From Bacteroidetes bacterium B1(2017) (GTDB lineage: Bacteria > Bacteroidota > Bacteroidia > UKL13-3): a DNA stretch of 64,000 nucleotides. The DNA lies in contig NKJG01000002.1 of the NCBI GenBank assembly GCA_002256395.1, forward strand, positions 273,098 to 337,097. The letters run 5' to 3'. Under the pieces are notes generated by a model, which saw only the letters and a list, made by a program, of their open reading frames with translations, was not told where the DNA came from and did not search any database. A program made the translations under genes and the position numbers. Below are positions 61,735 through 63,642 of the stretch, in pieces; position 1 is the stretch's first letter; each line of letters begins with the position of its first letter.

Positions 61735-62496
61735 ATGAAACAATTAGAGAACAAAGTAGCCATTATTACAGGTGGTTCGGGTAGTATTGGAAGAACTACT
61801 GCTAAGTTATTTTTAGAAGAAGGCGCCAAGGTTTTGTTGGTAGATATCAACGAAGAAAAACTGAAAGAAACAATAAGTAAATTAGATAGCGTAAATGTGA
61901 GCTCTATTTTTGCCGATGTTTCAAAATCAATTGATGTAGAAAAGTATGTGAACCATGCCGTAAAATTGTATGGCAAAATTGATGTCTTCTTTAATAATGC
62001 AGGAATAGAAGGCGTTGTTAAACCCATTGTTGAGTACCCAGAAGAAGTTTTTGATAAGGTAATTTCTGTCAATGTAAAAGGCATTTGGTTGGGTAATAAA
62101 TATGTATTGCCACAAATGAATGATGGCGGTAGTATTATTATGACATCCTCTGTGGCAGGTTTATTGGGCTTTGCAAACTTGGGTGCCTATGTAACCAGTA
62201 AGCATGCCGTGGTGGGCATAATGCGCACCACAGCGCTAGAAGCTGCCGCAAGAAAAATTCGAGTTAATTCGGTTCACCCCTCACCTGTAAACAACAGAAT
62301 GATGCGTTCTATAGAAGAAGGTGCATCTGCCGGACATGGCGAAGATGTTAAGAAACAATTTGAAGCTAGCATACCATTAAAACGCTATGCCGAAGCCATT
62401 GAAATAGCCCAATTAGTTCTCTTTTTAGCAGGTGATAATAGCAAATTTATTACGGGTACCACCCAAGTAATAGATGGTGGTATGTGTGCTCAATAA
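61735..62496 (+). CDS. SDR family NAD(P)-dependent oxidoreductase
   Basis: ITGGSGSIGRTTAKLF; NNAGIEG; YVTSKHAV; GTTQVIDGGM. Confidence 0.94.
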   Translation: MKQLENKVAIITGGSGSIGRTTAKLFLEEGAKVLLVDINEEKLKETISKLDSVNVSSIFADVSKSIDVEKYVNHAVKLYGKIDVFFNNAGIEGVVKPIVEYPEEVFDKVISVNVKGIWLGNKYVLPQMNDGGSIIMTSSVAGLLGFANLGAYVTSKHAVVGIMRTTALEAAARKIRVNSVHPSPVNNRMMRSIEEGASAGHGEDVKKQFEASIPLKRYAEAIEIAQLVLFLAGDNSKFITGTTQVIDGGMCAQ

Positions 62497-62509
62497 ATTT
62501 GGGAAACTT

Positions 62510-62838
62510 CTCTATTTTTTAGAGGTAATCCTCCTAAATTATGAGGTGATCCTCGGTTTTTACGAGGATTACCTCGTTACAGCGAGGTGATCCTCTATTT
62601 TTTAGAGGTGATCCTCCTAAAATACGAGGTGATCCTCGGTTTTTACGAGGATTAGCTCGTTACAGCGAGGTGATCCTCATTTTTTTGGAGGTGATTCTCG
62701 TAAAATACGAGGTGATGCTCTGTTTTTACGAGATTCATCTCCTTACAGCGAGATGATTCTCATTTTTTTGGGGATGATTCTCGTAAAAAGGGAGATGATT
62801 CTCTGTTTTTACGAGATTCATCCCCTACTAGAGAGATA
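62510..62838. repeat. Non-coding higher-order tandem repeat: ~83 bp unit made of four ~21 bp subunits with near-palindromic 12-mer cores
   Basis: GAGGTGATCCTC-like cores start at 62522, 62543, 62564, 62584, 62605, 62626, 62647, 62667, 62688, 62709, 62730, 62750, 62771, 62792, 62813; GTTAC/CTTAC landmark at 62576, 62659, 62742 gives the 83 bp period. Confidence 0.93.
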
Positions 62839-62887: not shown

Positions 62888-63301
62888 TTAAACTAACTTT
62901 CTCTCCGATTCACTAATTTCTAAATCGTTGATGCTCGCATAGCGTTTTGCCATATAGCCAAGCTCGTCAAATTCCCAGTTTTCATTGCCATAGGCTCTAA
63001 ACCATTGTCCGCTTGAGTTTTGATATTCATACTCAAACCTCACAGCAATGCGGTTATTGGTATGCGCCCAATATTCTTTTTTGAGCTTATACTTGAGTTC
63101 TTTTTTCCATTTGGCATTCAAAAAGGAAACAATTTCATCTCTTCCTTTTAGAAATTGGTTTCTATTTCTCCACTCGCTATCAATAGTATAAGCTTGTGAT
63201 ACACGAACAGGATCTTTACTATTCCAGGCATCTTCGGCCATTTGAATTTTTTGTTTGGCTGTTTCCTCCGTAAAAGGCGGCAGCGGATTTCTTGGTTCCA
63301 T
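62888..63301 (-). CDS. DUF1348 / nuclear transport factor 2-like family protein
   Basis: [58 protein letters not shown]...[22 protein letters not shown]. Confidence 0.9.
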
Positions 63302-63455: not shown

Positions 63456-63642
63456 TTAGTGAAATTGCCTCAATAATAGAAAAGGAAAAGTAACCACAAT
63501 GGCCACAAAGGGAAGAACACAACAGACACGAAGGCGCTGAAGGCAGGGAAAAATTATGAATTTTGAATTATGAGTTATGAATTAATCCAAATTCACAGCG
63601 CTCAACGCCAACTCCACCATAGCAAAGCCACTACTTTCCTTA

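Follow-up and report, generated by a model that had tools for sequence, protein, structure and literature searches.

A phased palindrome array between convergent genes of a Bacteroidetes bacterium: a candidate palindromic minisatellite

The gap between two converging genes of Bacteroidetes bacterium B1(2017) holds a non-coding array of sixteen 12-mer palindromic cores, arranged in 3.9 units of 83 bp and spaced about two helical turns apart. We tentatively read it, with a probability of roughly 0.48, as a species-specific non-coding palindromic minisatellite whose arms would be kept complementary by hairpin-templated replication. Positions refer to the window, that is, the whole 64,000-nt stretch of DNA that was analysed, unless another locus is named (Table 1).

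Repeat architecture and gene context

Direct reading and scripts place the regular cores at 62522, 62543, 62564, 62584, 62605, 62626, 62647, 62667, 62688, 62709, 62730, 62750, 62771, 62792 and 62813 (together spanning 62522–62824), preceded by a degenerate first core at 62501 that reads GGGAAACTTCTC. The core-to-core step is 21/21/21/20 bp over the whole array (mean pitch 20.80 bp), with four cores per 83-bp unit and about four units, the copy number being that of the assembly. TRF likewise finds a period of 83 in 3.7 copies at 62510-62815 (score 405). The initial annotation had described about 15 cores with this spacing in an 83-bp unit, the fourth core of each unit being reversed; both descriptions are borne out, with the degenerate core added as the sixteenth and the inverted fourth core reading GAGGATTACCTC and, further right, GAGATTCATCTC. 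The periodicity is nested (21, 41-42 and 83), and compared with the first 140 nt the later copies fall to 92% and then to 79% identity. From left to right the arms shift gradually from GAGG/CCTC to GAGA/TCTC, and direct reading shows a cluster of four substitutions separating core 4 on the right from its counterpart in the left units; most of these changes restore pairing with the neighbouring core. Neither strand has a reading frame running through the array, so a coding origin is rejected, as the initial annotation had held on other grounds. The copies are head-to-tail, non-coding and at one locus, as expected of a bacterial minisatellite.

By mechanical gene calls, the array occupies the convergent (3'-3') gap from the end of the SDR gene at 62496 to the end of the DUF1348 gene at 62888. 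Across the genus, dnaN and an S1-nuclease-like gene, often with a thioredoxin-like gene, are syntenic; the SDR gene, the array and the DUF1348 gene do not share this synteny, and the nearest relatives are without the SDR locus. No SDR match at E<=1e-60 was found elsewhere in the genus, and the 3' flanks of DUF1348 homologues in two genus members hold no array. Heptamer-type tandem repeats are frequent in intergenic DNA of the genus, both in the window (63552-63584) and at other loci (L149, L156, L158, L225, L226).

Table 1 Coordinates of the array, its neighbours and other arrays.
Feature	Position	Strand	Remarks
SDR-family oxidoreductase gene	61735..62496	+	PF13561/PF00106; stop 4 bp before array
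Palindrome array	62501..62838		Sixteen cores, 3.9 units of 83 bp
54-nt hairpin, unit 0 (core2-linker-core3-linker-core4)	62522..62575	+	-28.8 kcal/mol; c2:c4 12/12 paired
54-nt hairpin, unit 1	62605..62658	+	-29.5 kcal/mol
54-nt hairpin, unit 2	62688..62741	+	-25.4 kcal/mol
54-nt hairpin, unit 3	62771..62824	+	-35.1 kcal/mol; arms 62770-62795 / 62800-62825 88% complementary
Alternative hairpin, core4:next core1, terminator-like	62564..62604	+	14-pair stem + T tract; -24.3 kcal/mol
Weaker core4:core1 recurrences	62647-62678; 62730-62761
DUF1348 (SnoaL-like) gene	62888..63301	-	PF07080; converges on array
CCTAAGGGTTTAGGAAAGGTG array, genus member (G018)	L159 3855-4330		21 bp, 23 units, non-coding; about 6 kb from dnaN
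GTAGCTTCCCACC array, genus member (G007)	L195 3785-4270		22 bp, 20 units, non-coding
TGCAAA/TACAAA-based arrays, this genome	L203 9505-9815; L206 5650-6110		20-22 bp, non-coding
Related array, this genome, window's own contig (G000:C9)	L175 18050-18350
TGCAAA/TACAAA-based array, this genome	G000:C137:940871		20-22 bp, non-coding

Predicted folding and complementarity of the arms

The gap is predicted to fold far more stably than shuffled sequence (z -12.0 on the plus and -11.9 on the minus strand). A large hairpin in each unit had been proposed, and one is predicted, but the quoted pairing of core 3 with core 4 is incomplete; the better prediction is a 54-nt structure that encloses core 3 between core 2 and its pairing partner, the inverted core 4. 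It occurs in four copies, for each of which 0/500 shuffles were as stable. Alternatively, core 4 may pair with the next core 1, and there a GC-containing stem (62564-62595) is directly followed by TATTTTTTA, the sequence pattern of an intrinsic terminator.

Within the cores, 58 of the 64 arm pairs are Watson-Crick, 3/64 are G.T and 3/64 are mismatched. Shuffling the 3' letters within columns equals this pairing in 0.4% of trials (p 0.004, four-pair arms together), so, six exceptions aside, the earlier claim that the two arms changed in concert is upheld. Among units the c2:c4 stem changes from A-T to G-C at pair 2 and from C-G to T-A at pair 9, while pair 4 passes from G-C through G:T to A-T and pair 6 from A-T through G:T to G-C. 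Complementarity exceeds that of within-column shuffles for c2:c4 (p 0.011) and for the hairpin as a whole (p 0.002); several other pairings had no excess in the same test. With about a dozen pairings tried on only four units, all related to one another, these p-values are indicative. A structured RNA made of repeats and lying 3' of the SDR gene, one of the readings first offered, is partly supported in that it would fit the modelled folding, the compensatory changes and the convergent position.

Distribution of the array and of its pitch

Array DNA matches itself alone in the 5.5-Mb genome, and all eight genome-wide occurrences of the core GAGRTGATYCTC lie within it. DNA searches found the array in none of 59 relatives and in no plasmids or phages. 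These null matches and the missing synteny mark the array as local, and as either young or lost from other genomes. Membership of a known generic repeat family, named in the initial annotation as a refutation, did not emerge: Rfam gave no family at gathering score (sub-threshold hairpin look-alikes only) and the genome holds no dispersed copies. Literature searches for arrays of phased palindromes, or for bacterial tandem repeats with a 21-bp period, turned up no match. A viral origin was also rejected; two exact core-plus-linker matches in viral contigs are single, lie inside predicted reading frames and belong to no array.

A scan of 85,488 genomes for GAGR-N4-YCTC arms gave more than 119 matches, many of them coding or simply 20–22 bp tandem repeats containing the motif, and the two-core pattern, looked for in 396 genomes of the class, is no commoner there than a reversed control. 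Similar arms elsewhere are therefore not evidence of kinship, and a family defined by these arms is rejected. The scan brought up other palindromes. The rumen MAG Bacteroidaceae RGIG4776 carries a dispersed palindrome family, in which the perfect palindrome GAGGATATCCTC forms short arrays at 22-bp pitch in more than 20 loci (L026, L031, L051, L059, L069, L073, L076, L080, L099, L117, L123-L125 and others). Look-alike GCGAGGATTTCCTCGCT-type arrays of ~21 bp occur in gut MAGs labelled Dysgonamonadaceae, Tannerella, Treponema, Prevotellaceae, Proteiniphilum and Planctomycetaceae (L033, L036, L039, L041, L057, L089, L113), a sharing that may reflect transfer, a shared mechanism or mis-binning. Actinobacteria (L019, L047, L086, L087, L115, L126) have three operator-like GGAGG-N4-CCTCC palindromes at 22-bp pitch in similar context.

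The pitch was surveyed across 2.48 Mb drawn from this genome and from its wider genus, family and class, covering non-coding arrays with a basic period of 15–40 bp. A 20–22 bp period is seen in 9 of 13 arrays, compared with 1.5 expected from an even spread over periods, a crude null applied to a small sample (binomial p 2e-6; p 6e-5 to 3e-4 with counts reduced for related arrays). The CCTAAGGGTTTAGGAAAGGTG, GTAGCTTCCCACC and TGCAAA/TACAAA-based arrays are unrelated in sequence, and the last, those of this genome, reach 20 units without RNA structure. None of six other ~21-bp arrays tested folds strongly, with a mild signal on one strand of the GTAGCTTCCCACC array. The helical pitch pointed out in the initial annotation is strengthened by such unstructured arrays in the genus; since they lack hairpins, the pitch is a feature of a wider class, and the palindromes one of the window array alone. 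An initial sign that such arrays prefer convergent gaps did not hold up against the background (6/23 placed arrays vs 38/180 gaps, on rough gene calls). This genome also contains a dispersed palindromic repeat, GGACAGGTCGCGACCTGTCC, in tandem copies of 28-31 bp (L203 6900-9100, L219 9365-9450), and a 146-bp tandem repeat in 2.9 copies that apparently contains a tRNA-like gene is found at L188 966-1385 (G013:C12).

Origin of the array and rival explanations

The nested periodicity and graded divergence point to stepwise growth, in which an ancestral unit of ~21 bp would have given the 83-bp four-core unit and this would have been duplicated about four times, probably by slippage or recombination. 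Cores 2 to 4 of each unit are a quasi-palindrome able to form the 54-nt hairpin. Template switching at this quasi-palindrome, by which replication copies one arm from its partner, could then, along with exchange among units, keep the arms complementary during their drift from GAGG/CCTC to GAGA/TCTC. Such switching is described for quasi-palindromes of E. coli (PMC7202029) and has also been proposed for RNA stems (PMC8794818); the four clustered changes in core 4 are in keeping with it. The unrelated 20-22 bp non-coding arrays in the genus and in this genome indicate that such arrays arise often. Like intergenic VNTR-type minisatellites, the array is non-coding, tandem, single-locus, graded in divergence and not found in relatives; unlike them, it has a unit that combines four phased palindromes with a long hairpin. 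Several points count against the minisatellite reading: wobble intermediates are more natural under stepwise RNA selection than if template switching changed whole blocks, the lack of palindromes in the other ~21-bp arrays means that something specific acts at this one, and a neutral origin leaves the 20-22 bp preference unexplained. If SDR transcription reaches the array, the mRNA would end in four tandem hairpins plus the terminator-like core 4:next core 1 fold with its T7, and any role of the array would then be that of a transcript end or of an insulator between the converging genes.

The main rival, possible though rather unlikely in our judgement, is an array selected in the 3' UTR of SDR transcripts, where each 54-nt hairpin would protect the 3' end and core4:core1 with T7 would terminate, sparing the DUF1348 gene antisense RNA. 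The wobble intermediates and a plus-strand bias fit such selection nearly as well. The array directly follows the SDR stop codon in a convergent gap, the plus strand folds 23 kcal/mol more stably than the minus, the hairpin wobble pairs are all G.T on the plus strand, and strong T tracts follow core 1 on that strand only. A scan of the 2.1-kb region for terminator-like sites gave 7 against 1.6 expected, four plus-strand ones falling within the array. The core4:core1 stem followed by T7 resembles an intrinsic terminator, but this putative terminator is repeated three times and accompanied by a competing hairpin, as core3:core4 would form earlier. Moreover, a single ordinary terminator would be enough, and the DUF1348 and dnaN neighbourhoods of relatives manage without the array.

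The pitch itself speaks for DNA binding, because two turns of B-DNA match the mean of 20.80 bp, with its regular 20-bp step, and other arrays of the genus hold 20-22 bp despite unrelated sequence. A dimeric protein could sit on each GAGR-N4-YCTC core, a twelve-mer with recurring arms, cooperatively on one face, as a silencer, centromere-like or nucleoid site. We nevertheless consider this improbable. The cooperative protein-binding array of the initial annotation is weakened because the core is restricted to the array: with no second site in 5.5 Mb there is no site set for a general regulator, and a dedicated binder for the single locus is the possible form of it. No regulator gene adjoins the array, core 4 is inverted with a centre that is not conserved, and arms and linkers have diverged about equally between units (0.21 vs 0.24), where selected operators should exceed linkers in conservation. 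Plasmid iterons and centromere-like arrays also have sites about every two helical turns, but no Rep or Par gene lies alongside, the cores are palindromic with one in four inverted, and the contig is chromosomal. Extragenic palindromes of alternating orientation next to gene 3' ends recall REP elements and BIMEs, and Y1_Tnp (PF01797) matches at 7 places in the genome; a mobile REP/BIME or MITE family, or an assembly artefact, is nevertheless very improbable for a single-locus array of regular two-turn pitch, not found in the 59 relatives, with differing units inside an 857-kb contig. The single locus argues equally against a multi-site regulon. We also hold it doubtful that the 20-22 bp arrays form a general, undescribed class of Bacteroidia chromosomes, their pitch held by DNA geometry, whether through a nucleoid protein that binds one face or through a way of duplicating that counts helical turns, of which the window array would be a member turned palindromic.

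The common 20–22 bp pitch hints that helical geometry shapes the origin or survival of bacterial non-coding repeats. If hairpin-templated replication maintains the arms, the array would hold, within one piece of DNA, a compact natural record of how palindromes are homogenised, intermediates included; if selection maintains them, it would be an unusual tandem hairpin 3' end.
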